32,673 nt of DNA from Acidimicrobiales bacterium (GTDB lineage Bacteria; Actinomycetota; Acidimicrobiia; Acidimicrobiales; SZUA-35), in NCBI GenBank assembly GCA_020628065.1, contig JAHDFR010000008.1, positions 18,403-51,075 on the forward strand, written 5' to 3'. Under the pieces are notes generated by a model, which had not been told where the DNA came from, made no database searches, and worked only from the letters and a program-made list of their open reading frames with translations. Numbering within the stretch: position 1 is the first letter of the stretch; the number at the start of each line of letters is the position of its first letter. A program made the translations under genes and the position numbers. Shown here in pieces: positions 7,057 through 26,422 of the stretch.

Positions 7057-8016
7057 TTAGGGGATCTTGGCTTCGGGCTCGCCCACCCAGTGACGGAAGA
7101 ACAACCTGTCGCCTCCGGTGGCGGCCACAAAGTTGGTGGTGGAGGCGATGGAGCCGATTGGGCTCCTCTCTCCAGCTGCATTCTCGGCTACCACGTCGAA
7201 CAGCGGTGAGTCGGAACCGAGCCGAGGCAGGGTGAAACGAAAGTCTTCTCCGGGATGACGGCGAAAGTATCGAGCAGCCTCAACCCGTGGCCGGAAAATC
7301 ACCCGATGAGGGCTCACCGGTTGGTGTTGTTGAACACCGGCGCCGTCCCAGATGGTCAGATGATCGATCCGTAGTCGTCGGGTTTCCGGCGACGCTCGTT
7401 TGAACAACACGGCCATGATTCGTTGCGGGAGCCTCAGCTCGTTGTGGCCGTCGGTTATGTCGTGTGACATCGGGTTAGCGAACAGATTGTGGTTGCGCCC
7501 CTGGCCGTTGGTGTGATTGACGGCCACCACATCGAGCGACGGTCTACCGTCGACCAGGAACTTCAACCCCGCTCCGGGAATGAACGACTTCCGTAAACCA
7601 GGCGGAGCGGCCAGCGACATTCGTATTAGCCCGATAGCGGTGTGGTTAGAGCCGAGTAGACCGGTAAACGGCGACTTTGGGCCGATCGTCATAGTGATGC
7701 AGGCCACCGATCCGAACTCGTGAATCACTTTCGGCCGCCCGGCCGGCATAGTGTCCCCGGCATGTTCCAGCGTCTTGGTCAGCTCCTCGACCGACAGAAC
7801 CAGCTTGGCCCGGCTTGGGATCTCCGATAGGGGCGGAACCATGAGGTCGGGAAGCTCAACCGGTCGGTAGGTGGTTTCCGCGATGGCCGTTTCCCACAGC
7901 CATTGCTGCTTTTGCCGGGCCGACCAGGTGACGTAATCCTGTGGTGCAACCGGCTCCGCATCCTTGATCTTGGAGCTGGCCTTGGAGTTGGTCTTGGAGT
8001 TGGTGGTGTAGGTCAC
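7057..8016 (-). CDS. Catalase-related (catalase-like barrel) protein
   Basis: A 319-residue protein resembling the beta-barrel half of haem catalases. KVIHEFGSVA (H99) aligns with the distal-His motif RVVHAxG. A segment of the type GLxRMSLAxPP and GAGLKFLVDGRPSLDVVAVN resembles the catalase G-x-ALK-x-x-x-x-G-x-x-D-L-V-x-N region, and FVAATGGDRLFFRH closes the protein. The axial-Tyr motif of true catalases (RxFxYxDT) is not found, so haem binding and catalase activity are unproven. The N-terminus has a low-complexity Lys/Ser/Asn stretch. The GTG start overlaps the stop of the upstream cyclase-ATPase gene as GTGA, so the two are translationally coupled. Catalase-related proteins that pair with lipoxygenases act on fatty-acid hydroperoxides in other organisms, which suggests an oxylipin role; this is inference. 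Confidence 0.6.
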   Translation of the reverse strand: MTYTTNSKTNSKASSKIKDAEPVAPQDYVTWSARQKQQWLWETAIAETTYRPVELPDLMVPPLSEIPSRAKLVLSVEELTKTLEHAGDTMPAGRPKVIHEFGSVACITMTIGPKSPFTGLLGSNHTAIGLIRMSLAAPPGLRKSFIPGAGLKFLVDGRPSLDVVAVNHTNGQGRNHNLFANPMSHDITDGHNELRLPQRIMAVLFKRASPETRRLRIDHLTIWDGAGVQQHQPVSPHRVIFRPRVEAARYFRRHPGEDFRFTLPRLGSDSPLFDVVAENAAGERSPIGSIASTTNFVAATGGDRLFFRHWVGEPEAKIP

Positions 8017-10796
8017 GGGTCCGATGTCTCACTGTCAAATCGATCGGGTAGCTCACCTGACTGATCGACGAGTTCGTCGAGCCAGGCCACGGCCTGGATA
8101 CCGGCTTTCTTGATGGACCAACCCTGCCCAACGGCCAGGGCGTCGTCCATTTGCTCGCCAAGAGCCGCTTCGAGTGCTTTGCGAATATCGCGGCGGGGAC
8201 GGTGACCGTTGCCGATCATGGCGCCCAGCAGGGCAGCACCATCCTTCGGGCGACCAGCCCGAGCCAGGATGACCGAACCGGCCCCCAGCAGATGGCTGGC
8301 TCCCACCAGGTAGTGCTTGTCCATGGTGGCCCGAATCTCGGCTGCGTTAATTGCCGCCGCCTCTTCCACCGACCCGGTAAGGGAGCTGAAGTGCACCACC
8401 AGCCCGTTGATCAAGTGGGTGATGAGATGGTTGTTGGTAAGGGAGTTGGCCATGGCCAAGCCTTCTTTGATGGCCTCGTCGGCCACCGGCCCGTCCACGA
8501 TCAAGTTGGACACCGCCCGGGCCCAGTACGCAATGGTCAACGCACTGGCACTACCGGTCTTTGCCGCCTCGGCCATAGCCCGCTCGGCCATAGCCGAGGC
8601 TTCAGGTGTCGGTTCTCGCAGGCAAAGATGAAAAGCCCGCAAACCGTAGGCGACCACCCGCTGCTCCGGAAGGTCGTCGCTGAGGTTGGCCAACATGCCG
8701 GCGGTGGCCCGCTCGGACAACTCCGAGTCGAAGGTGTTGTTGAGGGCAATGGACGCCAACGTGGTTCGGGCCAAACCGGTCGGGTCGGCGGTGTCGAGCT
8801 CAAGGCTGGTTTCGGCCGAGTTCATGGCGTCATGATTGGCCGACAGGTATTGGCCGATGGACTTCACCGCCCACAGCTCAGCCGACTGGGCCAACGGATC
8901 CTCATCAAGTAGCCGATCGACCCAGCCGAACAGCTCCATCCTCATGGACAACGTGGCGAACCATGCCTGGCTGACCACGAGGTCTTTGGCTTTCCCGAAG
9001 TCGCCGTTGCGTACCAGTGTGTCGAAGGCGGCTCGGGTGTTGTCGCCCTCGGTGTCAATTGTGGTCCAAACGTCGGCTTCGGAGTCCGTCATCAGCCTAC
9101 GCCCGCAGCTCAGCGCCAATTCGGTGTAGAAATCGGCGTGAGCGGCCAGTAGCTGGTCGTGAGAGGGCAAACCATAAGCGGAGCCGACGCGAGCCTTAAG
9201 TCGGGTCAGGCCGAAGTGTCGAATGGTCTCCAGCATGTGGAAGCGGATCTCACCGTGGCCTGGACGGTTGCGTATCAACGAGATCTCGACCAGGTCGGTT
9301 AAGTCATCGAGAAGTTCGATCTGGTCGTCAACGCCAAGTACCGCGGAGACGGCTTCGAGGGTGAACCCGCCGGAGAAGACGCACAGGCTTTCCAAGACGT
9401 GCTGTTGGCGGGTGTCGAGCTGCTCGAAGCTCCAGGCCACCGTGGCTTCAAGCGGGTTTGGGCCACGGTTGCTTCCCGCCCCCGAGCCAAGCAGTCGAAA
9501 GCGGTCATTCAACCCGTCCAATAGTTGTTCCGGCGAGAGGATTCTGAGCCGGGCGGCGGCCAACTCCAACGCCAACGGGATGCCGTCAAGCTGCCGGCAG
9601 ATTTGACGCAGAGTGTCGTTGTTGGATCCGGCGTCAAACCCTGGATCTCGCTCCAGGGCCCTTTCGGTCAGCAGCTCCAGCGCATAAGACTGCACGTCGA
9701 GCGGTTCCAAATTGAGGCGTTGCTCACCAACAAGGTCCAATGGTTCACGTGAGGTGATCAACACCGTTGGGCCGTTAACCGAAAGCAGTTGCTGCACGGC
9801 CGCTCTGACGGCTTCTTTCACATGCTCGCAGTTGTCGATCACCACCAGGACCCGTCGATCTTCAACGAAGTTGACGATGCTGCCAAGCAGGTCGTGACCT
9901 GGTTGAGGGCGGGCTCCCAGTGCTTCGGCCAGGGCCTCGACGACACTGGTTGTCGGATCGGTGCCATCGGCGGCGATCGGTCCCAGCGGGCAGAAGACCA
10001 CGCCGTCGTCAAACAGATTGTGGTTCTCGCGGGCGACCGCCACCGCCACCCTGGTTTTGCCGATGCCGCCAAGGCCGATGAGCGATATCAGGCGACGTTC
10101 CCGCAGATACTCCGAGATGGCTTCTCGCACGTCGATGCGGTCGACCAGTCGACTGGTTTCCGCCGGAAGGTCGCTGCCGGCCAGAGCCCGTCGAATTCGT
10201 AGCGGCCGTTCGTCGAGCAGCAGGTCGTCGGCGCTGACCAGGAAGATCCGCTCCTGGCCGCAACCTTTCAACTGGGCGATCCCGCAGTCGGTGAACGCCA
10301 CCGAACCGCTTATCTGGTTGCCGGCCGCAGTGGCCACCGCTTCGGTGACGGCGATCTGATCGCCGTTGGCGGCATCGGCTACCCGGGCGGCGCGGTTGAT
10401 GACGCCGCCGTAGTAGTCGTCTCCGTCCGGGCTGGCCTCCCCGCAGTGCAACCCGACACGCACCCGCATGCGCTCGACGCCGTCCCAGGCCGGAAGTTGG
10501 AAGCGCCGTTGCATGTCGACGGCGGCGGCTACGGCGTCGCCGGGGTTGGTGAAAACCGATTCGACTCCGTCACCGGTGTGTTTGACCAGGATGCCGTTGT
10601 GCTCGACCGTCACCTGTTCGGCTGTGCGGTCGTGATAGCGCAGAGCCTTGCGGGCGTCGCTTGGCCGCTTCTCCCACGTAGCCGAGCTGTCTTCCAGGTC
10701 GGTAAACAGGAACGTTATGTGGCCGGTGGGCAGTGATGACGCTTGATCAGGTTTCACGCCGACGTTGCTCACGCCGGCCAACCCGATAGCCACCAT
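8013..10796 (-). CDS. Class III nucleotidyl cyclase / AAA (STAND-type) ATPase signalling protein
   Basis: A 927-residue multidomain regulator. Residues about 25-190 form a class III adenylate/guanylate cyclase domain with both metal-binding Asp residues (D33 in FTDLEDS, D76 in KHTGDG) and the N-x-x-x-R pair (N134, R138), so it looks catalytically complete. A STAND-type NTPase follows: Walker A GLGGIGKT at 241-248, Walker B VLVVIDNCEH ending near 325, then an ITSREPL sensor. The C-terminal half is helical and Ala/Leu-rich, like TPR or winged-helix sensor repeats, and no LuxR-type DNA-binding domain is seen at the end. It probably couples ligand or protein sensing to cyclic-nucleotide output. 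It heads a two-gene transcript with the catalase-like gene. The start at 10796 is the longest option. Confidence 0.85.
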   Translation of the reverse strand: MVAIGLAGVSNVGVKPDQASSLPTGHITFLFTDLEDSSATWEKRPSDARKALRYHDRTAEQVTVEHNGILVKHTGDGVESVFTNPGDAVAAAVDMQRRFQLPAWDGVERMRVRVGLHCGEASPDGDDYYGGVINRAARVADAANGDQIAVTEAVATAAGNQISGSVAFTDCGIAQLKGCGQERIFLVSADDLLLDERPLRIRRALAGSDLPAETSRLVDRIDVREAISEYLRERRLISLIGLGGIGKTRVAVAVARENHNLFDDGVVFCPLGPIAADGTDPTTSVVEALAEALGARPQPGHDLLGSIVNFVEDRRVLVVIDNCEHVKEAVRAAVQQLLSVNGPTVLITSREPLDLVGEQRLNLEPLDVQSYALELLTERALERDPGFDAGSNNDTLRQICRQLDGIPLALELAAARLRILSPEQLLDGLNDRFRLLGSGAGSNRGPNPLEATVAWSFEQLDTRQQHVLESLCVFSGGFTLEAVSAVLGVDDQIELLDDLTDLVEISLIRNRPGHGEIRFHMLETIRHFGLTRLKARVGSAYGLPSHDQLLAAHADFYTELALSCGRRLMTDSEADVWTTIDTEGDNTRAAFDTLVRNGDFGKAKDLVVSQAWFATLSMRMELFGWVDRLLDEDPLAQSAELWAVKSIGQYLSANHDAMNSAETSLELDTADPTGLARTTLASIALNNTFDSELSERATAGMLANLSDDLPEQRVVAYGLRAFHLCLREPTPEASAMAERAMAEAAKTGSASALTIAYWARAVSNLIVDGPVADEAIKEGLAMANSLTNNHLITHLINGLVVHFSSLTGSVEEAAAINAAEIRATMDKHYLVGASHLLGAGSVILARAGRPKDGAALLGAMIGNGHRPRRDIRKALEAALGEQMDDALAVGQGWSIKKAGIQAVAWLDELVDQSGELPDRFDSETSDP

Positions 10797-11040
10797 TGGC
10801 CGCCATGGAGCTGAGGTCTCATCTGGGACAGGTGTAGTTCTTCGGCTAGCTGTAGTTGTACGCCAAACGGCATCGAAGTCCGCGCTCTGCGGACTGCGGA
10901 CGTTCCCTCTGCACCAAGCACAAGTGCCGTGAACGCTGCCGGTTGGTCTCTTAACCGCAGTGTAGACGGTTCCCGGAAACCGGCTGAAGTTTGCCGGGGT
11001 TGGGTGATTTCACCCGGCTTGAAGCTCGCCTCTTGGAGCG
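10797..11040. other. Intergenic region with two small inverted repeats
   Basis: No gene is supported here. It must hold the promoter of the minus-strand cyclase-ATPase operon and the 3' end of the MarR transcript. I see a 7-bp perfect hairpin AGTCCGC/GCGGACT with a 5-base loop (10877-10895), followed at once by another GCGGAC copy. I also see GGGTG/CACCC with loop ATTT (11002-11015), about 25 bases past the MarR stop, which could act as a weak terminator or operator. Neither has a T-tract. Confidence 0.4.
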
Positions 11041-11562
11041 TTATGTATTTGAGCAGTCGGGGCAGGACTCTTTGCGGCGATGGACTCGCATGTGGTTCGA
11101 AAGGCGGTCCATGATGTCGGCCACAGATTGCTGTTCGCCGCTGTCCATGCCGTCGAGAAGGAACTGTTTGATAAGGGCGGCGTGACCGACGGCGGCGTCG
11201 GCCAGGGCCGCTTGTCCTTCGGGAAGAAGGGTTGCCATCAGGCCCCGTCCGTCTTCCTCGATCGGTAGTCGGGCGATCCAGCCCCGCTTCTCCAACCGGT
11301 TGGCGGTGTGGGTCAACTTCTGGGCCGACGATACAACCTGCTCGGCCAGCGTGGTCATTCGCATCTGACCTCCGGCTCCGTCGAGGCGGACCAACACCTC
11401 GTAGTCGCTGTGGGTCATGTTGTGGTTCTCGGCCAGGTGTCGAGCGAGCAGCTCCTCCAGCAGGCGGGAGGCATCGAGAAACCTGGTCCAGGTGCGCAGT
11501 TCGGTTTTTGACAGGTGATGCCCGGTCCCGGCCAGCTGTGTCGGTTCGTAGTCGTCACTCAT
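11041..11562 (-). CDS. MarR-family transcriptional regulator
   Basis: A 173-residue winged-helix repressor-type protein. The N-terminal dimerisation helix (TWTRFLDASRLLEELLARHL) is followed by the helix-turn-helix MTTLAEQVVSSAQKLTHTAN and the wing RLPIEEDGRGLMATLLPEG, then the C-terminal dimer helices. It ends in a Cys-x-x-Cys tail (ESCPDCSNT), which could make it thiol- or metal-responsive; that is speculation. MarR proteins usually control a neighbouring gene. Here the candidate is the SnoaL-type gene 79 bp upstream on the same strand. Confidence 0.9.
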   Translation of the reverse strand: MSDDYEPTQLAGTGHHLSKTELRTWTRFLDASRLLEELLARHLAENHNMTHSDYEVLVRLDGAGGQMRMTTLAEQVVSSAQKLTHTANRLEKRGWIARLPIEEDGRGLMATLLPEGQAALADAAVGHAALIKQFLLDGMDSGEQQSVADIMDRLSNHMRVHRRKESCPDCSNT

Positions 11563-16856: not shown

Positions 16857-19025
16857 CTAACGCTTCTCTATGACGCCCGCCCCGACCCTGACCTCCACCG
16901 GCTGACCGGTGGAAAAGAAGCGGGTGGCGCCACTCACATTGGTTATGGCCGGCACACCCCGCTCTCGGAGCAGGATGGACCCGTGCGACAGGTCCCCGCC
17001 GGTTTCGACAACCACGGCGGCCACCTGGGTGAAAGTGGGTATCCAACCGGCGTCAACCGAGCGAGCCACCAGCACCGTTGACGCTGGATCAAAGCCTTCC
17101 GGCAGATCGACCGACGGCTCGCGCAGCACCCAGGCTTTTCCGCCGACGACGCCATCGGTCAACGGTAATCCGGACAGTCGATCGCCTGTTGGGGCGTCCT
17201 GGCGCCACGACGCCGGGTCGTCGAAGCGTTTAACCACCGGCGGAGGGTCGAGCTCGGCCAGTCGGTCTCTTTCGTCCAGCCGATCCGTCCAGAACGCCGG
17301 CGCGGGGGTCCAACCCTTATCGAGGGCGCAGGCCTCATCGGTCGTCAGCAGCCAGAGGTCGTCGACTTGTCGAAGCTGCCCACGCTTCACCGCCTGATCA
17401 GCCAGATCAACCAGAGACAGGCGAATGTCGGCGAAGCCGGCCATGGCCTGATGACGCAGCGCTTCCCGCGCCGTCACCGGCTGCCGCGCCGCCGCCCAAA
17501 CAGGTCTGGTCGCCGCTCGCAGCAGGCGCTGTCGCACCGTCACCTTCTCAATATTCTCGAAGGTGGCAGTTGCCGGTCGCTCGATCGTTGCCCGGCCGCC
17601 ACCAGGCTGGCCAAGCAAACCGGGATCGTCGCTGAACCGGGGTCGGGCGATGTCGGACTCGTAGACCGCCCGGTGGCCGAACTGCGTCATGAATCGATCG
17701 ATGGAAACGGTCCCGGCTTGAACGTCGTCCAAGGCTTCAGCCAGTTCGGTGGTGATGGTGCGATGTCGCCCGGCATGGTGGGCAAGAGTGCCGGCTCGGC
17801 GCAGTACGGCCATGGGCGGTCCGATGGCCGAGGACAACGGAAACATACCGGTGACCAGTCCGACGTACGCTCGTTGGAGTTGATGTAGGGCCTCGGTGAA
17901 CGACTGGGCTTGTGGTTCGCCCATGGCGGCCAGCTTCCGCTGAATTCGACCGGCTCGAACGACGGCGGCGATCTGGGCCAGGCCCATACGAACCAGGACC
18001 GGTGACTTGACGGCGATGCGGCGTATGTCAGCCGGTCGGTCGTTGTCGGGCGGCCCACCGATGGAGTCGGCCACCAGCCGAGTCGGCAGTCCAAGGTGGC
18101 GAAGCAGATCCTCCAGCAGCGTGAGGTTGATAAAGGGCCGACCGGCGATCACCTCAAGGAACAGCCGGTTGTCCGGCAGGCTGTCGTCGAAACGCCGATA
18201 CCACCCGAACAGCTCACGCCCGGCACCCTCGATCACGCTGGTCATCAGATGCGACGGCAGCGGAGGCAGAATTTCGGCATGGTTGGCGATGGTGAAGGCT
18301 TCGTTGCGCCTGATGGGTGTGGTGATGGGGCGTATCTGCACCAGCCAGCACGTTGAGTCGTCGTCGGCCCACTCGATGTCCCAGGGCTGGTCACCGAAGA
18401 CCTCCCGCACGCTCCGCAAGAGGTGTTGCAGCCGTTGTCGCCATCCTTCAGGTTCTGATTCCAGCCGGGCCAAGGTTGTGGCGGCTCCCGGCTCGTCCCC
18501 GCCGACCAGCCGTTCGGCTGTACCGGAGGTGGCGTTCACCATGTCGTCGTAGGTCCCGGGCTCGGTGAAGGCGACGCCTGACTGGCGAGCCTGCACCATA
18601 GTCATGATCATGACGTCTCGCCGGAGCCGCCCCGGGTCGATGCCGGCTGCGAGCAGATCAGAGGTTCGGTCCTCGGCCGAGGCCCGCACCCGTTCCACCG
18701 CAGCCGCCACCTGATCGATCGGTACCCGTAGTTCGGTTCGGAACCATCCGGCCAGGCTGGACTCGGCCTGATCTTCGGCCGAGAAGACGGAGCGCACGGC
18801 AACGGTCTCGGTCAGTACTCCGGCCGCTCGGAGTTGCGCCGCCGTGGGTACGACCGCACCATCGGAAACGACCACCAAGGCAGGCACCGGTAGCCCAGCT
18901 GCGGCGCCCTCGATTAGTCGCCCGGCCTTACCACCGGTCGTGATGGAAGCTGATGACGACTCGATGGTTGGCGGGTTTCTGAAGAACGAGCGCCAGGAGT
19001 CGGTGGGACGGTTCTTGATTATCAC
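16857..19025 (-). CDS. PEP-utilising / pyruvate-phosphate-dikinase-like protein
   Basis: A 722-residue protein with the two end modules of PEP-synthase, PPDK and rifampin-phosphotransferase enzymes. The N-terminal ATP-binding part shows GGKAGRLIEGAAAGLPVP, VAVRSVFSAEDQAESSLAG, and IEWADDDSTCWLVQIRPIT (residues about 35-235). The C-terminal swivelling domain carries the phosphoryl-transfer His H681 in GGDLSHGSILLRERGVPAI. The middle, about 400 residues, is divergent and would hold the acceptor site; no substrate can be named. It may phosphorylate a small molecule using ATP, like rifampin phosphotransferase (usually longer, about 830-870 residues). The GTG start overlaps the hydrolase stop as GTGA, so it is the third gene of the peroxiredoxin-hydrolase operon. 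Confidence 0.8.
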   Translation of the reverse strand: MIIKNRPTDSWRSFFRNPPTIESSSASITTGGKAGRLIEGAAAGLPVPALVVVSDGAVVPTAAQLRAAGVLTETVAVRSVFSAEDQAESSLAGWFRTELRVPIDQVAAAVERVRASAEDRTSDLLAAGIDPGRLRRDVMIMTMVQARQSGVAFTEPGTYDDMVNATSGTAERLVGGDEPGAATTLARLESEPEGWRQRLQHLLRSVREVFGDQPWDIEWADDDSTCWLVQIRPITTPIRRNEAFTIANHAEILPPLPSHLMTSVIEGAGRELFGWYRRFDDSLPDNRLFLEVIAGRPFINLTLLEDLLRHLGLPTRLVADSIGGPPDNDRPADIRRIAVKSPVLVRMGLAQIAAVVRAGRIQRKLAAMGEPQAQSFTEALHQLQRAYVGLVTGMFPLSSAIGPPMAVLRRAGTLAHHAGRHRTITTELAEALDDVQAGTVSIDRFMTQFGHRAVYESDIARPRFSDDPGLLGQPGGGRATIERPATATFENIEKVTVRQRLLRAATRPVWAAARQPVTAREALRHQAMAGFADIRLSLVDLADQAVKRGQLRQVDDLWLLTTDEACALDKGWTPAPAFWTDRLDERDRLAELDPPPVVKRFDDPASWRQDAPTGDRLSGLPLTDGVVGGKAWVLREPSVDLPEGFDPASTVLVARSVDAGWIPTFTQVAAVVVETGGDLSHGSILLRERGVPAITNVSGATRFFSTGQPVEVRVGAGVIEKR

Positions 19026-19837
19026 CGGCGCACTTCGCTCCCCACTAGTCGGCGGGCAATGGCGACAACCTCAGTGGCGTAGTCTTTCGGCTGTTCGATC
19101 ATGGGGAAGTGGTCCCAGCCGTCCCGGATGACCACTTCAGCACCGGGAACTTTGTCGTTGATCTCGTCGGCCTGTCCGGATCGCAGAACCCGGTCGTCGG
19201 CGCCCCACAGCAGAACCACCGGCATCCCGGTGATCGGCTGGACCCCTTCGAACCATGGCCGGTTGATCAGGTCGAACATGTCTCCGAACGCCTGACAGTG
19301 CCGGTACTCGTTGAAGAAGTTGTCGAGAACGTCCTTGGGAGCACCGTGAGGAAAGAAGATGCGGCGTAGTAGCGGGCGGGGGAGCGAAGAGGAGATTCCC
19401 CGCTTGATGATTGCCCGGACCGCCTTTGTGCTCATGATCTTGGGGAACAGACGGGTGTCGAGGCTGGCACCGACCGGTGCATGAAGGATGAGCCCGTCGG
19501 CAATATCGGGCCGCCGTGATGCCAGGTCAAGGGCTATGGAGCCCCCAATTCCGTGACCCAGGAGAACCGTCTGTTCAGCCTCCGCTCCGTCGGGTGAAGG
19601 ACCCTTCATCATGTCGGCCAGTCGGTCGCCATAGTCCGACAGTGTTCTGAGACTTGGGTCTTTGGGTTTGGTGGAGAACCCGGGAAGAGTGATTGCGTCC
19701 AGCCTCACCCGGGTAGGAACGTAACCGTGGAGGAGCGCGAAGCGGGACGCGCCGCCGCCGTTGCCGTGAACCAAGACGATACGAATCGTTGGGTCGGTTG
19801 CGGTCTCGTTCTCTTGGCCTATGCGTTCGAGGCTCAT
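19022..19837 (-). CDS. Alpha/beta-hydrolase-fold protein without the nucleophilic Ser
   Basis: A 271-residue alpha/beta-hydrolase. The HGNGGG oxyanion segment, the strand order, WGADDRVL (acid region) and DGWDHFPMIEQP (catalytic His) are all in place. The nucleophile elbow reads GHGIGG where active family members have GHSxGG: residue 96, codon 19550-19552, is GGA (Gly). It therefore lacks the usual Ser and may be an inactive, ligand-binding or scaffold homologue. The frame is open to 19960, but ATG 19837 overlaps the upstream gene's stop as ATGA, which settles the start. It is the middle gene of the three-gene operon. Confidence 0.8.
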   Translation of the reverse strand: MSLERIGQENETATDPTIRIVLVHGNGGGASRFALLHGYVPTRVRLDAITLPGFSTKPKDPSLRTLSDYGDRLADMMKGPSPDGAEAEQTVLLGHGIGGSIALDLASRRPDIADGLILHAPVGASLDTRLFPKIMSTKAVRAIIKRGISSSLPRPLLRRIFFPHGAPKDVLDNFFNEYRHCQAFGDMFDLINRPWFEGVQPITGMPVVLLWGADDRVLRSGQADEINDKVPGAEVVIRDGWDHFPMIEQPKDYATEVVAIARRLVGSEVRR

Positions 19838-20436
19838 TCGGTTACCGCTTCCATGAACTTGGGGATGTTCCTGACTTCGGGATGGTGGCCGGCATGCTCG
19901 CCTCGATGAGCCCAGACGACGGTTCGGTTCCGGACGGCAAGGACGGTCGGCAACGTCCACGGATCGCCAATCTTACGGTTGATGAAGTGGCCTTGACCGA
20001 CGGCCTTCAGGCCACAGGCCCATGCTTTGGCTCCGAACATTTCACGGAAGCCACCTCGCTCGATGCCGAAGGCGGCGTACAGCTTGCCGTCCGGGTCGGC
20101 GATGGCTTGGGCGCCGGTGAACAGCTTGTCGAAGAACATGGGCCCCTGCTCAGGCGTGCCCTGGTAGACGAAGACCACTTGCGGGTAGTCGGGATTGGCT
20201 TTAACAGCGTCGGCGAACTCGTCGACCAGTTGACGGTAGAACAGTCAACCAAAGTGACGAAGAAAGACCAGGAGCGTGTCGTGGGCATTGACCAACTCGT
20301 CGAGAGTTTCGCCTTTCAGCTGGTGGCCATCGACTGGAAGCTGGAACGTGTCGGCGTCAACCGGTCTCACCGCTGGGTCATGACGGCCGGTCGACACGCT
20401 CGAATTGTGGGGTTTTGCTACCGTCTCAGCTGACAC
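19834..20436 (-). CDS. AhpC/TSA_2 (SelU/PRXL2-like) protein with in-frame TGA, candidate selenoprotein
   Basis: One continuous minus-strand frame of 200 codons is interrupted by a single TGA at codon 64 (20245-20247). Before it stands TLLVFLRHFG; after it LFYRQLVDEFADAVKANPDY. In the AhpC-TSA_2 family (PF13911), which includes vertebrate SelU, this is the first Cys of HFGCxxC, so TGA replaces the key redox Cys and Tyr the second. The rest is intact: DPDGKLYAAFGIERGG, GDPWTLPTVLAVRNRTVVW and HRGEHAGHHPE are family-typical. The GTG start has GGAG 7 bases upstream. Other genes here use TGA as stop, so the code is standard. The gene ends ATGA-coupled to the hydrolase, implying that ribosomes pass the TGA. 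The alternative is a point-mutated pseudogene or sequencing error. Confidence 0.75.
20216..20244 (-). promoter_or_regulatory. SECIS-like stem-loop just after the in-frame TGA
   Basis: Minus-strand RNA 3' of the UGA has stem AACU/AGUU (4 bp) with an 8-base loop GGUCGACG. The loop begins 18 bases after the UGA and its first two bases are G, as bacterial SECIS elements require. The loop start GGUC resembles the fdhF SECIS loop of E. coli. The stem is short, and an alternative CGUC/GACG stem is possible, so a folding test is needed. Confidence 0.4.
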
Positions 20437-20560
20437 CGTGAATCTCCGATCTCTACCGTCGATGCTGACGGCACCTACTGCCCAATACGGGGTAGAGCCA
20501 GCCCGGAGATGCAGATTGGCCCAGCTAGGGCGTGCTGGGTGTCACACCCGCCGCAAGCGG

Positions 20561-20890
20561 CTAAGTAGATTGGCCCTGGGCCGTCGGCGCTGCCAGGTCA
20601 TCGGTGATCAGATGATCGTTCTCGCCTGCCCGATAGGTGGCCCGAAACAGCAAGTGAACCCCGACCGGCAGCGTCAGGGTCATGGCGGCGGCCGCTACCA
20701 GGACGAGGCCCGCTCCGGTTGGTCCGAGCGCGATGCCGGCCCCCACAGCGGCCACAAGAAAGGCGATCGGGCTGGCCTTGCCGGCGGCGTGGAATCGAGC
20801 GTACGGGGTGTTCAACCTCAGTAAACCGATCCCGGCCAGTAGCGCCACAAGCCCACCGATTAGCATCAGGACGTTGGCCATCAAGTTCAT
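20561..20890 (-). CDS. mnhG: Na+/H+ antiporter Mrp subunit G
   Basis: A 109-residue membrane protein with three hydrophobic helices. The family lead LIGGLVALLAGIGLLRLNTPYARFHAAGKAS and an Ala/Gly-rich LGPTGAGLVLVAAAAM follow the MrpG/PhaG/MnhG pattern. It is the last gene of the seven-subunit operon. Its ATG overlaps the mnhF stop as ATGA. In the Mrp complex it belongs to the small-subunit group needed for assembly of the Na+(Li+)/H+ exchanger. A 124-bp gap with no clear gene separates it from the peroxiredoxin-like gene downstream. Confidence 0.92.
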   Translation of the reverse strand: MNLMANVLMLIGGLVALLAGIGLLRLNTPYARFHAAGKASPIAFLVAAVGAGIALGPTGAGLVLVAAAAMTLTLPVGVHLLFRATYRAGENDHLITDDLAAPTAQGQST

Positions 20891-21207
20891 GTCTTCGCCT
20901 CCCGTGATTCCTCAGTGAGCTCCGGTAGCGCCCCGGTGTCGGTTACCCGCAGTCGGGAACGTTCGGTCTCCAGGAAACGACTGGCGGCAACGGTGGCGGT
21001 GAAGCCGACGATGGCGATAACCACCAGCAAAATCAGGTAGGTAGTGTCGTTGCGTCGGGCGGCGTCGACCGAGATGGCGCCCATCAACGAGATCAAGATC
21101 ACGTCAAGAGCCATGATGCGATCTCCCAGGCCGGGTCCGACCAGAAGACGATAGGTTCCGCAAAGTGCGGCCAGCCCGAAACAACAGATGGCGGCGATGG
21201 TGATCAT
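20887..21207 (-). CDS. mnhF: Na+/H+ antiporter Mrp subunit F
   Basis: A 106-residue, three-helix membrane protein. It matches MrpF by the motif VGPGLGDRIMALDVI after the first helix, and by the second and third helices (LIGAISVDAARR-like and TYLILLVVIAIVGFTATVA). The hydrophilic tail is acidic. Overlaps of ATGA join it to mnhE and mnhG. Its role is as a small structural subunit of the antiporter. Confidence 0.93.
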   Translation of the reverse strand: MITIAAICCFGLAALCGTYRLLVGPGLGDRIMALDVILISLMGAISVDAARRNDTTYLILLVVIAIVGFTATVAASRFLETERSRLRVTDTGALPELTEESREAKT

Positions 21208-21758
21208 GTTGTTTCCTCCATGTGGAGATCATCGGCGGCCTCAGGAATCACTGGCCCGGGCACAGGCAAAGCACGGCAAGCCAGATCGGCCAATCGTTCG
21301 ACGTGGCGCAACGTGTCGTTTCGTCGACGGTCGTGGAGGATGTGGAGATACAGGGTTCCGGTGTCCAGATCGCCGTCAACAACGGCAGTACCCGGCGTCA
21401 GCGTGATGGCCACGATCAGCAAGAGGAAGTGGTCCCGGCTGCGTAACGGCAGTTGGGCGGCAACAATCGACTCTTCCGTCCGGTCCGTGGGGGTGAGAAT
21501 TTCAACTGCAACGTCAACCGTGGAGCGGACAAGGTCCACGGCCACCACCCACAGCAACTCGAGCAGAGGGCCTAGGCGGACACCGCCAACGGCGGCTGTT
21601 CCTAGACCGAGCCCTACTGTGGTGGCGGCCACCACAAATCCGGAAGCGAGGTTGGCCACCGAGAAGCTGCCCCACAGCACGCACCAGGTGGCGGTCAGTG
21701 CGGCCACTGTGGCCAGCCGTCGAGGACGGGTGAGCAGATCACGCATTCGACGAATCAT
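21204..21758 (-). CDS. mnhE: Na+/H+ antiporter Mrp subunit E
   Basis: A 184-residue protein with a basic N-terminus, a few membrane helices (residues about 14-62), and a cytoplasmic domain. The MrpE signature is seen in the LRSRDHFLLLIVAITLTPGT region, followed by VVDGDLDTGTLYLHILH. ATGA overlaps join it to mnhD and mnhF. It is an accessory subunit needed for a stable complex. Confidence 0.93.
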   Translation of the reverse strand: MIRRMRDLLTRPRRLATVAALTATWCVLWGSFSVANLASGFVVAATTVGLGLGTAAVGGVRLGPLLELLWVVAVDLVRSTVDVAVEILTPTDRTEESIVAAQLPLRSRDHFLLLIVAITLTPGTAVVDGDLDTGTLYLHILHDRRRNDTLRHVERLADLACRALPVPGPVIPEAADDLHMEETT

Positions 21759-23236
21759 GACAGCACCGCCGAGATGTAGGCGTCAGGTGTGCGCAGGTCG
21801 TCCGAGGCTTGTCGACTCAAATCGAACAGAGTCCCGGCCATCAGCGAGATGGTGAGAGTTCCGGCAACAGCCAGCCCGGTGGCGGCCAGCATGGTCCGCC
21901 GATTGCCCGGAGCCGCCTCCCGGTCGATGTCGGCGTCGTCGGTTGAACCCCAGAACACCCCGATCCAAATCTTGGCCATCGACAGCAGAGTCAGCGCACC
22001 AGCGGCCAAGGCGGCGATCACCACCGGAGTGGAGGCGGCTTCGATCCCGGCTGAGATGACGGCGAACTTGGCCACAAAACCGGAGAACGGAGGCAGCCCG
22101 GCCAAGCTCAGCGCCGGTATGGCAAACAAGGCGGCGATCAATGGTCGCCGAGCGGCCATGCCGGCCGATCGGTCAAGACTGCCGGTTCCCTGTTCGTTCT
22201 CAATCAAACCACCGACGAGGAACAGGACCGTTTTCACCGGCATGTGGTGCACCAGGAACAGGATGGCCCCTGCGGTGCCGGCGGCTGAGAACAACCCGAG
22301 ACCCATCAGCATGTAGCCGATCTGACTGATGATGTGGAACGACAGGATGCGTTTGACGTCGGACTGGGCCAAAGCCCCCAGGGCGCCAACCACCATGGTG
22401 ACACCGGCGATGACGAGCATCACCGAACCGAGGCGATCCATACCGGTCAGGGTGTGGAACCGGATCATAGCGTAGATACCGATTTTGGTCAGCAGTCCGG
22501 CAAACACGGCGGTGATGGTGGTTGGCGCAGTCGGGTAGGAGTCGGGGAGCCAGGAGAACAACGGGAAGACGGCGGCCTTGGTGCCGAAGACGACAAAGAA
22601 CCATGCGCCGATACCAAGGCGAACACCGTCCGACAGCTCGGGTATCCGTTCGGTCAGCAACGCCAGATTCACTGTTCCGGTGGCGGCGTACACAAAAGCC
22701 AGTCCGAACAGGAACAGGGTGGAGGCCAGCAGGTTCATGGCCACGTATGTCATCCCAGAGCGGATTTGGGCTCGCTGACCCTGGTGGGTCAACAGGACGT
22801 AGCTGGAGACCAGGATCAGTTCGAAGGCCACGAAGAGGGTGAAGAGGTCACCGGTGAGCATGGCCAGTGACACCCCGGCGGTCATGACGCCCAGCAACGG
22901 GCCGGCGAGCTCAGGGTTTGCGCCCCAAGCGGTCCGGCGCTGGCCGATGGCAAAAAGCTCGACCACGAAGATGATGGTCAAGGCCACCGGTAGCACTAGG
23001 GCGGCGAAGAGGTCGGCCACCAGTACGATGCCCAACTCCGGATGCCAACCGCCGACCCGGACCACATGGGTTCCGTTGGCCACCACCTGAAACAGCAGCG
23101 CCAGGGAGGCGGCGGCCGCCGCGCCCAGTCCGAGCAACGTGGCCAGATCGCGCAGCTCCGCTCGTCTACGGACCGCCATGCCGAGAGCGGCCGACGTCAA
23201 TGGGGCGAGAATAGTGGCGGCAACGAGGGTGCTCAT
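21755..23236 (-). CDS. mnhD: Na+/H+ antiporter Mrp subunit D
   Basis: A 493-residue membrane subunit related to NuoM/NuoN of complex I, with about 14 helices. The conserved proton-path residues are visible: Glu139 in FVAFELILVSSYVLL, Lys220 in FVVFGTKAAVFPLFSWLPDS, and the PTAPTTITAVFAGLLTKIG helix. It is one of the two antiporter-like ion-conducting subunits. ATGA overlaps link it to mnhC and mnhE. Confidence 0.95.
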   Translation of the reverse strand: MSTLVAATILAPLTSAALGMAVRRRAELRDLATLLGLGAAAAASLALLFQVVANGTHVVRVGGWHPELGIVLVADLFAALVLPVALTIIFVVELFAIGQRRTAWGANPELAGPLLGVMTAGVSLAMLTGDLFTLFVAFELILVSSYVLLTHQGQRAQIRSGMTYVAMNLLASTLFLFGLAFVYAATGTVNLALLTERIPELSDGVRLGIGAWFFVVFGTKAAVFPLFSWLPDSYPTAPTTITAVFAGLLTKIGIYAMIRFHTLTGMDRLGSVMLVIAGVTMVVGALGALAQSDVKRILSFHIISQIGYMLMGLGLFSAAGTAGAILFLVHHMPVKTVLFLVGGLIENEQGTGSLDRSAGMAARRPLIAALFAIPALSLAGLPPFSGFVAKFAVISAGIEAASTPVVIAALAAGALTLLSMAKIWIGVFWGSTDDADIDREAAPGNRRTMLAATGLAVAGTLTISLMAGTLFDLSRQASDDLRTPDAYISAVLS

Positions 23237-23712
23237 GATGCGGTCACCGCCTGCCGGGATGTACCGGAATGGTCGGCCGCATTGGCAATGTCATCCGACG
23301 AGGTCGTTGCCTCAGCCGGTTCCCCGTGGGCGCTGTCTCCGGGCTTGGAGTCGCCGACCTGGTCATCGCCGGCGTGAGCGATTCGTCGATCCTCCAGATC
23401 GTCCTCCACCATGTCGTCGCCCGTCAGCTGTTGCTGGCGTCCGGCCAGGGCCAGCAGGAACAGCGTCAGTCCGAAGGAGATAACGATGGCGGTGAGAGCC
23501 AGCGCTTGTGGTAGAGGGTTGGCAATCTGACTCGTCGTCCCTCCGACGATTGGAGCCTGACCGGGAGGTCCGCCGGCCGTCACCAACGCAACCACGGCGG
23601 CGTGACCGAGCAGGGTGAAACCGAGGATGACCCGGCTGAGCGACCGAGCGGTTATCAGGTAAAGGCCGACCGACGTCAAACCTCCCACGATGAACAACAG
23701 AGCGAGGCTCAT
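23233..23712 (-). CDS. mnhC: Na+/H+ antiporter Mrp subunit C
   Basis: A 159-residue NuoK-like subunit with three helices in its first 108 residues. The family motif NPLPQALALTAIVISFGLT is present. After the last helix a hydrophilic tail of about 50 residues follows, rich in Asp, Glu, Gln and Ala; many MrpC proteins are near 110-120 residues and lack this. The tail may be a lineage-specific cytoplasmic extension. ATGA overlaps join it to mnhB and mnhD. Confidence 0.93.
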   Translation of the reverse strand: MSLALLFIVGGLTSVGLYLITARSLSRVILGFTLLGHAAVVALVTAGGPPGQAPIVGGTTSQIANPLPQALALTAIVISFGLTLFLLALAGRQQQLTGDDMVEDDLEDRRIAHAGDDQVGDSKPGDSAHGEPAEATTSSDDIANAADHSGTSRQAVTAS

Positions 23713-24143
23713 GCCGGGTTGCCTTTCGAGACAAGAGAATCAGAGGTGGACAGCCCGTCCAACAGAGCGATGACGAGGCCCACCACAATTGCGGTGACCC
23801 CGATATCAAACGGAAGAGCCGAACCGGTTTTGACCGTGCCCAACAGGGGAAGGTCGAACGAAACCACTTTTTGGTCGAGCATGGCGTCACCCCACAGAAT
23901 GGGAGCGGCGGCCACGGCGACTACCAGCAACGTGCCACCGGTGATGAGAGCGGGGCCGAACGTTGGCTTCTGCAGCCCGGCCAGCGTTCGCAGAATGACG
24001 ACCGCACCGAGGACGAGCCCGGCGGCGAATCCGCCACCAGGATTGTTGTGGCCGGCGAAGAGCAAATAGACGCCGACAATGACGGCCAGTGGGCTGGCCG
24101 ACTGAACACCAAGCTGGAAAATGGGGGACCGGCTCAGGATCAT
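23709..24143 (-). CDS. mnhB: Na+/H+ antiporter Mrp subunit B
   Basis: A 144-residue four-helix membrane protein. It carries the MrpB motif GHNNPGGGFAAGLVLGAVVIL, and a second conserved helix around VTAIVVGLVIALLDGLS. It is the usual small partner of MrpA. ATGA overlaps join it to mnhA and mnhC. Confidence 0.94.
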   Translation of the reverse strand: MILSRSPIFQLGVQSASPLAVIVGVYLLFAGHNNPGGGFAAGLVLGAVVILRTLAGLQKPTFGPALITGGTLLVVAVAAAPILWGDAMLDQKVVSFDLPLLGTVKTGSALPFDIGVTAIVVGLVIALLDGLSTSDSLVSKGNPA

Positions 24144-26422
24144 GTTGAGGCCTCCAGTTGTCGGATTCGGGCCAGCGCCAGGATGCCGACGGCCACGGTG
24201 GCCAGCACCACCACTTCACCAAGAGTGTCCAGGGCACGGGTGTCGGTGAGAATCACGTTCACCACGTTCTTGCCCCCTCCTTCACTGACGGCACTGTCGG
24301 CCAGTTCGGCAACCGGGGCGGTGCCGGCCGGGGCGGCAGAGGCGGCGGCCAGGCCGACCATGACCACCAGACCACCGGCCAAGGACATGGCCAGTCGGGC
24401 CGCCCGCCAGGAGCCGCTCTTCTTCGGGAACCTGCGGGATAAGTGGCCTAGGCCGAGCACGAATCCGACCACGATAATGGTCTCCACCAGCAGCTGGGTG
24501 AGCGCCAGGTCGGGGGCCCCGTGAGTGACGAACAGGGCCGAAACACCAATGCCGACGGCGCCCAGCGTCAGTGCCGCTCCCAGCCGGGATCGAACGATGA
24601 CTCCGGCGGCGGCCGAGGCGACGATGGCCAGTGCCAATACGCCCTGTAAAGGGTGGTCCCACAGAACGAGATGATCGGTTGGAAGGTCGAACACAAACGG
24701 AAGTGCGGCCAGCGACGCGGTGGCTCCCATCGTTGCCAGGTACACGGGCAGCGATCCATGCTGTATGTGGCCGGTGAGCCTCGGGGCGAACGCCAGCACA
24801 CCGTCGATGGTGGCGTCGGCGGTGTCGGCTCCGATTGGTCGAGGGATAGCGGTGGTTCGACGGGACAAAACGACACCCAGCAGCGATCCGGAAGCGACGA
24901 TTCCCATCGACACCACAAAAGCGGTCTTCAGACCCGGCCAGCGAATGAGCGAGTACTGGGCGGCATCCGCTTGAAGCTCGACGGCCGCCGGTCCGACCAG
25001 ATCGGTGATGGTTCCGGCGGCGGCGTATCCGACCAGCCCGGCCAGCCCCAACAGCACGGCCGGTGCTGCCATTGCCGGGCGCATGGGCGCAACCTCTGTC
25101 GGCTCCGTGGTCGAAGAGGTCGTTGACGATGTTGACCGGCTGAACGGTCCGAAGACTCCGACGAGGAACCGCACGGTGTAGGCCACCGTCAGGATGGATC
25201 CGCCGATGACGGCGACGGCAGCCACCGCACCAGCGGCTCCGGTGGTTCCGAGGACGGCTTCGATGGCTGCTTCCTTGGCCATGAAACCCAGCAATGGCGG
25301 AACACCGGCCATCGATGCGCCCGCCACGGCTGCCACGGCAAAGGCCACCGGCATCGAGCGGGCCAGGCCGCTGAGTTCGTTGATGTCCCGGGTCCCGGTG
25401 CGAATGTCGATCTCGCCGACCACCAGGAACAGTGCGGCCTTGAACAGGGCGTGGGCGAACAGCAGCGAGATGGCGGCGAAGACGGCCTTGCCCGAACCCA
25501 GTGCCAGCAGGGTGATAAGCAGACCGAGTTGGGACACCGTGCCCCAGGCCAGGATCAATTTGGCGTCCCGGTGACGAAGGGCTCCAATGGCTCCCCAAAG
25601 GATCGATGTCGCACCGAAGGCCAACCCGAGCCACTGCCACGTCGCCACGCCGACAAAGGCCGGGCCGAGCACGGCTACGAGCAACACGCCGGCTTTGACC
25701 ATGGTGGCCGAGTGCAGGTAGGCGCTGACCGGTGTGGGGGCGGCCATGGCCCCCGGCAGCCACACGTGGAATGGGACCTGAGCCGACTTGGTGGCGGCTC
25801 CAATGAGGATGAGTGTCGCCGCCACGGTGGCCGATGTTCCTGAAACCGGGGTGAGACCGGTGAGGGAGGAGCCGATGTCGCCGGCCAGGACCAGCAGCCC
25901 GGCCAACAGGACAAGACCGCCACCGCCGGTGATCAGTAGCGCTCGGCGGGCTGCGGTTCGAACGGAAGCGTCAGCGTTCTTGTGGCCCACCAGCAGGAAG
26001 GACGTGATGGAGGTGAGCTCCCAAAAGATGAACAGCGTCCACACCGAGTCGGCCCACACCAATCCCAGCATCGAGGCGGAGAAGGCGAGCAGCGAGGCCG
26101 GGAAACGGCTGGATCCAGCGGCCCCGGGCGAGAAGTAGCCGGCGGCGTAGACGAACACCAGTGTCCCGATTCCGGACACCAGCAGGGTCATCATCAGAGC
26201 CAGGGCGTCGGTTCGAAAGGCAAAGGTGAGGTCCAGGGCGGGAACCCAGGACAGCTCGGAAACACGGGCCGGGCTGGACGAGACCAGATCAACCAGGGCA
26301 ACGAGTGTGGTGAGGGCCGGAGCCACGGCCGCCACCAGCAAGCCCGCACGAATATCGCGGCGGCCGGCGACAGCGGCAGCTGCGACACCGACTATGTGAG
26401 CTGCCAGGAGAAGCCAAACCAT
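24140..26422 (-). CDS. mnhA: Na+/H+ antiporter Mrp subunit A
   Basis: A 760-residue subunit related to NuoL, the largest of the complex. Key residues are visible: Glu135 in FIFWELTSITSFLLVGH and Lys212 in TKSAQVPFHVWLPGAM, with the PTPVSAYLHSATMVKAG helix next. The C-terminal part (from about residue 560) is the extra membrane domain typical of MrpA, with LALTQLLVETIIVVGFVL. It leads the seven-gene operon A-B-C-D-E-F-G, whose junctions all overlap by 4 bp. There is no ribosome site before ATG 26422, and TACGAT at 26435-26430 lies 7 bases upstream, so the transcript may be leaderless. The complex exports Na+ for H+ and sustains pH and salt tolerance. Confidence 0.95.
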   Translation of the reverse strand: MVWLLLAAHIVGVAAAAVAGRRDIRAGLLVAAVAPALTTLVALVDLVSSSPARVSELSWVPALDLTFAFRTDALALMMTLLVSGIGTLVFVYAAGYFSPGAAGSSRFPASLLAFSASMLGLVWADSVWTLFIFWELTSITSFLLVGHKNADASVRTAARRALLITGGGGLVLLAGLLVLAGDIGSSLTGLTPVSGTSATVAATLILIGAATKSAQVPFHVWLPGAMAAPTPVSAYLHSATMVKAGVLLVAVLGPAFVGVATWQWLGLAFGATSILWGAIGALRHRDAKLILAWGTVSQLGLLITLLALGSGKAVFAAISLLFAHALFKAALFLVVGEIDIRTGTRDINELSGLARSMPVAFAVAAVAGASMAGVPPLLGFMAKEAAIEAVLGTTGAAGAVAAVAVIGGSILTVAYTVRFLVGVFGPFSRSTSSTTSSTTEPTEVAPMRPAMAAPAVLLGLAGLVGYAAAGTITDLVGPAAVELQADAAQYSLIRWPGLKTAFVVSMGIVASGSLLGVVLSRRTTAIPRPIGADTADATIDGVLAFAPRLTGHIQHGSLPVYLATMGATASLAALPFVFDLPTDHLVLWDHPLQGVLALAIVASAAAGVIVRSRLGAALTLGAVGIGVSALFVTHGAPDLALTQLLVETIIVVGFVLGLGHLSRRFPKKSGSWRAARLAMSLAGGLVVMVGLAAASAAPAGTAPVAELADSAVSEGGGKNVVNVILTDTRALDTLGEVVVLATVAVGILALARIRQLEAST

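Follow-up and report, generated by a model that had tools for sequence, protein, structure and literature searches.

An in-frame TGA codon in the 32,673-nucleotide stretch of DNA that was analysed here (the window) is, in our firm judgement, read as selenocysteine (Sec), and the product would be an enzyme of the thioredoxin/peroxiredoxin fold. The same TGA stands at the same active-site position in separately assembled related genomes and most of the Sec-synthesis genes are present, so that we very probably have before us a genuine selenoprotein gene, belonging to a known superfamily, carrying an uncommon motif and lying in a conserved operon.

The gene and its relatives

The gene occupies positions 19834..20436 on the minus strand of the window and runs from a GTG start (20436-20434) to a terminal TGA stop (19836-19834), comprising 200 codons when the internal TGA is read through. 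GGAG is found 7 bases 5' of the GTG, and the closest upstream in-frame stop lies at 20544. The internal TGA, codon 64 at 20245..20247 (minus strand), is the sole interruption of the frame and was taken as Sec on account of the frame and of the conservation in relatives; a standard-code gene caller would end the gene there. Residues 54-72 read TLLVFLRHFG-U-LFYRQLVD, where U stands at the column at which AhpC-TSA_2 relatives carry the first active-site Cys; Tyr occupies the second motif position. The initial annotation of this DNA had described the single frame, the placing of the TGA at the first Cys of HFGCxxC with Tyr for the second, and the coupling to two further genes; all three were borne out at the coordinates given, with the minus strand, left unstated there, to be added, and with overlaps of ATGA to the next gene and GTGA between the second and the third. 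The protein has one further Cys only (WACG), which is absent from the aligned relatives L061, L063, L064 and L066. On the same strand, 5' of the gene, the window holds genes for a Mrp-type Na+/H+ antiporter (20561-26422, minus), and the three of their proteins that were examined gave matches to families of antiporter subunits.

Searching 39 genomes of the same family gave 13 matches in 11 genomes. Five were close and had TGA at the Sec codon (the window gene, G028 with 70% identity, G004, G026 and G024), two were close and had Cys (CLFT, in G006 and G015), and six were distant, with TGA at a ULPC motif. Scanning of named genome contigs yielded ten loci, six with TGA and four with Cys at the Sec column, and six of these ten are the same contigs as in the 39-genome search. 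Their titles refer to Acidimicrobiia, Acidimicrobiales or Actinomycetota/Actinobacteria, apart from one Cys form from Thermoleophilia. Within the clade of the window gene TGA was present in all seven genomes, six of which are separately named MAGs, and the motif was ULFY in five, ULFH in one and ULFR in one. The Cys forms, CLFT, CLFC and CCFC, all fall outside this clade. Homologues with Cys and homologues with TGA at this column, which the initial annotation had proposed to look for, thus both exist; relatives of the same species with Cys, which it named as contrary evidence, were absent among the seven clade genomes, a comparison which concerns clade members and not a single species.

The seven clade members grouped together in a tree of 41 rows (support 96/94), on which the Sec/Cys state requires five changes; one row, L065 with the motif CCFC, is one codon out of register in the tree as well as in the hairpin-energy and recoding figures given below, while its lack of the AGUU loop was confirmed in register. 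Motifs lacking the second Cys (ULFY/H/R, ULFP and CLFT) were met on one side of the tree only, beside two Cys forms retaining it. Between the window gene and its six TGA-bearing relatives dN/dS ranged over 0.17-0.46 in the part preceding the TGA and over 0.17-0.38 in the part following it, rough values since several dS were high. As judged from these ratios, purifying selection is acting on both sides of the TGA.

The family was also followed through 395 genomes of the class with the NF040769 profile, which matched in 252 genomes at E up to 0.001 and exceeded its cut-off in nine. Among the best 30 loci kept from this search, 26 had one TGA (the window gene included) and four had none; their motifs were ULPC, ULHC, ULLC, UIPC, UIFC, ULFP and ULFY, as against CLPC, CLHC and CLLC. 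The genome of the window itself encodes a second TGA-bearing protein of the superfamily, with the motif HLMULPCQEH, on contig C372 (L100 3636-4133; G000:C372:57635-58132). It also has a further AhpC-TSA_2 match of 28.9 bits with no TGA (L002, G000:C353:9116-9289). A separate group of Sec genes (L084, L090, L097 and L098) has Pro at the second motif position, as in HFGULFPKEVV, and the hairpin predicted downstream of its TGA is another one.

Selenocysteine machinery and a candidate SECIS hairpin

The draft genome consists of 432 contigs, with a completeness of 95.2% and a contamination of 4.83%. Genes for selA (391.8 bits, cut-off 267.9) and selB (254.3 bits with neighbouring pieces, cut-off 242.25) adjoin each other on contig C89, and selD (366.7 bits) is found on contig C14 with an in-frame TGA of its own, HGAGUACK (L016 1501-2436; G000:C14:8510-9445). 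Contamination as the origin of these genes was rejected, as the composition of their contigs, and of C372 with the second TGA protein, agrees with that of the window (tetranucleotide r 0.97-0.98).

No tRNA-Sec was detected in this draft by the Rfam model, which was scored on 150 and 81 of some 1,090 preliminary candidates, nor by a 31-base pattern allowing up to 3 mismatches, by cmscan over all of C89 and C14, or by ARAGORN over C89, C14, C250 and parts of C45, C372 and C353. Of the 11 congeneric genomes, 10 have a tRNA-Sec scoring at least 64.8 bits, and the 31-base core recovers the same ten; the missing gene is for this reason likely to be an assembly gap. In G033, G026 and G028 the tRNA-Sec is located about 0.1, 2.7 and 9.2 kb, respectively, past a gene pair consisting of a sigma factor and a GGCT-like gene. 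The present genome has the same pair on contig C250 (6.1 kb), with 2.8 kb of sequence left between the pair and the contig end; ARAGORN found no tRNA on C250. A general placement of tRNA-Sec at contig ends was considered and is not claimed here, with 6 of 20 loci within 1 kb of an end and about 3.5 expected by a rough reckoning. In the locus L103 of a congener, the tRNA-Sec (7832-7927) and an integrase-like gene (10079-11251) are some 2 kb apart, and matches to the latter were also seen in the tRNA-Sec loci L049, L054, L057 and L104.

Downstream of the TGA there is a candidate SECIS hairpin at 20209..20226 (minus strand), with a stem of 7 pairs including one A-C mismatch and an AGUU loop at 20219-20216, 25 bases after the TGA. 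Its loop length, G position and spacing match the bacterial SECIS model as given in PMC13188914. The AGUU loop is present in 18 of 19 Sec genes from the ULF[YHR], ULHC, ULLC, UIPC and UIFC groups, as compared with none of eight Cys genes; it is lacking in the ULPC, ULFP and UIFC Sec genes, the first two of these groups having loops of a different kind. The 19 genes (18 distinct) were drawn from 32 Sec sites, nine ULPC and four ULFP sites being left out since their loops differ, while UIFC was kept despite its misfit. Over this set the covariation score was 0.539 versus 0.193 for shuffled alignments; the former was reached by 0 of 500 shuffles and lay above every slid control, though scores of this type can be inflated by relatedness. 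Paired cells amounted to 81.7% versus 60.0%. Six stem pairs were changed on both sides, a number reached by 83 of 500 shuffles and the one ordinary measure of the five. Within the window clade alone covariation was weak (31 of 500 shuffles). In addition, the loop Leu is encoded by TTG in 11 of 11 ULHC, ULLC and UIPC genes (background 0.163), against none of the three CLHC and CLLC genes.

The energy of the window hairpin equals that of synonymous recodings of the gene (z 0.03), 55% of which still give a hairpin complying with the rule, and a compliant stem also occurs in one Cys gene, L077. Hairpin energy was therefore rejected as evidence, since the recoding control was not beaten and the mean z of -0.99 in Sec genes is not separated from -0.89 in Cys genes. 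We regard the AGUU hairpin as a probable SECIS element for the group, and as an unproven candidate for the window gene taken alone. With 26 of the best 30 loci bearing TGA, several motif types, Sec/Cys switches on the tree and Cys genes devoid of AGUU, both the exchange of Sec for Cys and the SECIS rule become testable within one bacterial class.

Three explanations with no Sec in them were weighed against these data. That the TGA arose by recent nonsense mutation or by faulty sequencing or assembly, so that no whole protein is made, might be suspected in a draft, metagenome-type assembly with this number of contigs and level of contamination, and is extremely unlikely in view of the same TGA in seven clade genomes, the selection on its two sides and the conserved overlap with the next gene. 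That the TGA is a true stop, used as a regulatory device which releases a 63-residue peptide or permits a restart downstream, would agree with the use of TGA as a normal stop at other sites, the end of this very gene among them, and with in-frame restart codons past it, e.g., GTG at 20178. Against this, the TGA splits a thioredoxin-type motif and the Cys-bearing relatives are full length in a single frame, and we hold such a stop to be very improbable. Insertion of Cys or Trp through some unusual tRNA could draw on the failure to find tRNA-Sec in this assembly, but is opposed by the presence of selA, selB and a Sec-type selD and by the tRNA-Sec of congeners, which leaves it with hardly any probability. 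Reading of the UGA as Sec, as put forward in the initial annotation, thus gained support from the TGA in 7/7 clade genomes, from selection on both sides of it, from selA, selB and selD, from the overlap with the next gene, and from the second TGA protein, HLMULPC. Of the machinery that the annotation suggested searching for, selC (tRNA-Sec) was the part not recovered. Under the Sec reading, SelB and the downstream hairpin would direct the insertion, and the tRNA-Sec would sit in a gap of the assembly.

Fold, proposed chemistry and operon partners

The Sec protein scored 36.1 bits with Pfam AhpC-TSA_2 (PF13911), above the cut-off of 27. The closest named profile was NF040769 (SelL-related redox protein), which covered residues 32-193 with 117 and 117.6 bits and so fell below its cut-off of 120; the motif of SelL proper, UxxU, is absent, as the window protein has ULFY. 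AlphaFold2, given 11 aligned sequences, produced a model with pLDDT 93.3 and pTM 0.90, in which Sec (residue 41 of the model) is predicted to stand directly before a helix at 42-57, a placement resembling that in enzymes of the thioredoxin fold. Human prostamide/prostaglandin F synthase (9usa) ranked first in both structure searches (Foldseek E 8.4e-7; Z 17.1, rmsd 2.7 over 156). Peroxiredoxin Q, with Z 16.6, is within 1 Z unit of it and is counted as a tie, and 1-Cys peroxiredoxins came next. A sequence search of solved structures returned chance-level matches only (best E 0.52). The synthase is the SelU3 of PMC3473315, where it is described as reducing prostamide H2. The label SelU/PRXL2-like, assigned to the protein earlier, is reasonable in so far as SelU3 is the top fold match, and has to be qualified by the tie with peroxiredoxin Q and by a nearest named profile that is SelL-related. 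Our best reading is a single-Sec enzyme of the thioredoxin/peroxiredoxin fold within the AhpC-TSA_2 (PRXL2/SelU/SelL-like) superfamily, with no CxxC partner.

In such an enzyme the single selenol at the start of helix 1 would attack a peroxide or a similar oxidised small molecule. The motif has no second Cys and the other Cys (WACG) is not conserved, and therefore an outside thiol must presumably reduce the oxidised selenol; this may be a thiol of the mycothiol or the thioredoxin type. Mycothiol is used by Actinomycetota.

Two genes follow on the minus strand. The first, at 19022..19837, overlaps the Sec gene by ATGA and encodes a protein of the alpha/beta-hydrolase fold, and the second, at 16857..19025, overlaps the first by GTGA and encodes a PEP-synthase-like protein with PPDK_N and PEP-utiliser domains, resembling PEP synthase and rifamycin phosphotransferase. 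Both partner genes lie downstream in seven of the ten loci (5/6 Sec and 2/4 Cys), with identities of 46-74% for the hydrolase-fold protein and 43-69% for the PEP-synthase-like one, and no match to either was found in the stretches examined of L061, L067 and L068. The stop/start overlap of four bases between the Sec gene and the next gene was ATGA or GTGA in all five relatives read, i.e., the Sec loci with the operon. Both partners would be supplied with ribosomes that have run on to the true stop of the Sec gene. The usual hydrolase motif is GxSxG, with Ser as nucleophile. In the hydrolase-fold partner it is replaced by GHGIGG in 8/8 aligned sequences, and because Gly stands where the Ser nucleophile is usual, the protein may not be a hydrolase. 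The third protein keeps GGDLSHGSI in 8/8 aligned sequences, which we take to be its likely phospho-His site.

Sec may be assigned correctly and the enzyme still be no peroxidase. By analogy with SelU3 and prostamide H2, it could be a dedicated reductase acting in one step of a small-molecule pathway together with its two operon partners. The conservation of the operon in 7/10 loci and a top fold match whose reaction is the one described in PMC3473315 speak for this, whereas the equal fold score of peroxiredoxin Q and the Sec gene of L061, which has no partners in the stretch examined, speak against it; we regard it as a serious possibility, somewhat short of an even one. A more far-reaching idea is that a Sec-only branch of SelU/SelL dropped the second motif Cys (UxxY/H/R, with UxxP as a separate case) and acts together with a protein of the hydrolase fold having Gly at the nucleophile site and with a PEP-synthase-like phosphotransfer protein, in an undescribed three-protein pathway dependent on selenium. 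We offer this tentatively and consider it rather doubtful. For the single-Sec enzyme itself, the conserved operon offers an initial clue to the role of proteins of this kind.

Comparison with known selenoproteins

A literature search returned no paper on UxxY selenoproteins, none on a "SelL-related redox protein" and none that seemed on topic for selenoproteins of Acidimicrobiia. The text of PMC13188914 counts 119 selenoprotein families or subfamilies, with differing Sec motifs counted as separate subfamilies. UxxY has no entry in the whole of its table, and UxxY, UxxP, PF13911 and NF040769 gave no hits when looked for as terms in the paper. Since that review separates Sec motifs, UxxY would rank as a new subfamily, one which NCBI protein records may already annotate.

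An AhpC/TSA selenoprotein with UxxS is listed in PMC9312934 (as pfam13911) and in PMC13188914 (as cd02970). According to these entries, it is alike in its Pfam family, its single Sec and the lack of Cys at the second motif position, but has Ser there instead of Tyr, His or Arg. In the table of the 2026 catalogue UxxS is the sole form given for this Pfam family. Most Sec loci seen among the SelL-related proteins of NF040769 differ from the window protein in retaining the second Cys (ULPC, ULHC). The ULPU-containing selenoprotein named in PMC5029168 is possibly the same as the ULPC relatives, one of which is in this genome, by likeness of name only; the window protein has ULFY. SelL proper, described in PMC2398784 as a Prx-like selenoprotein common to bacteria and eukaryotes, is similar in kind but has two Sec residues (UxxU) and not one. 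The SelU family supplies the top-ranked solved fold match of the window protein, SelU3 (9usa), tied with peroxiredoxin Q, and its Sec forms are known from animals (PMC3473315). It differs in being a family of animal proteins, with 18% identity over the alignment, and the human enzyme has both C44 and C47 according to the title of 9usa.
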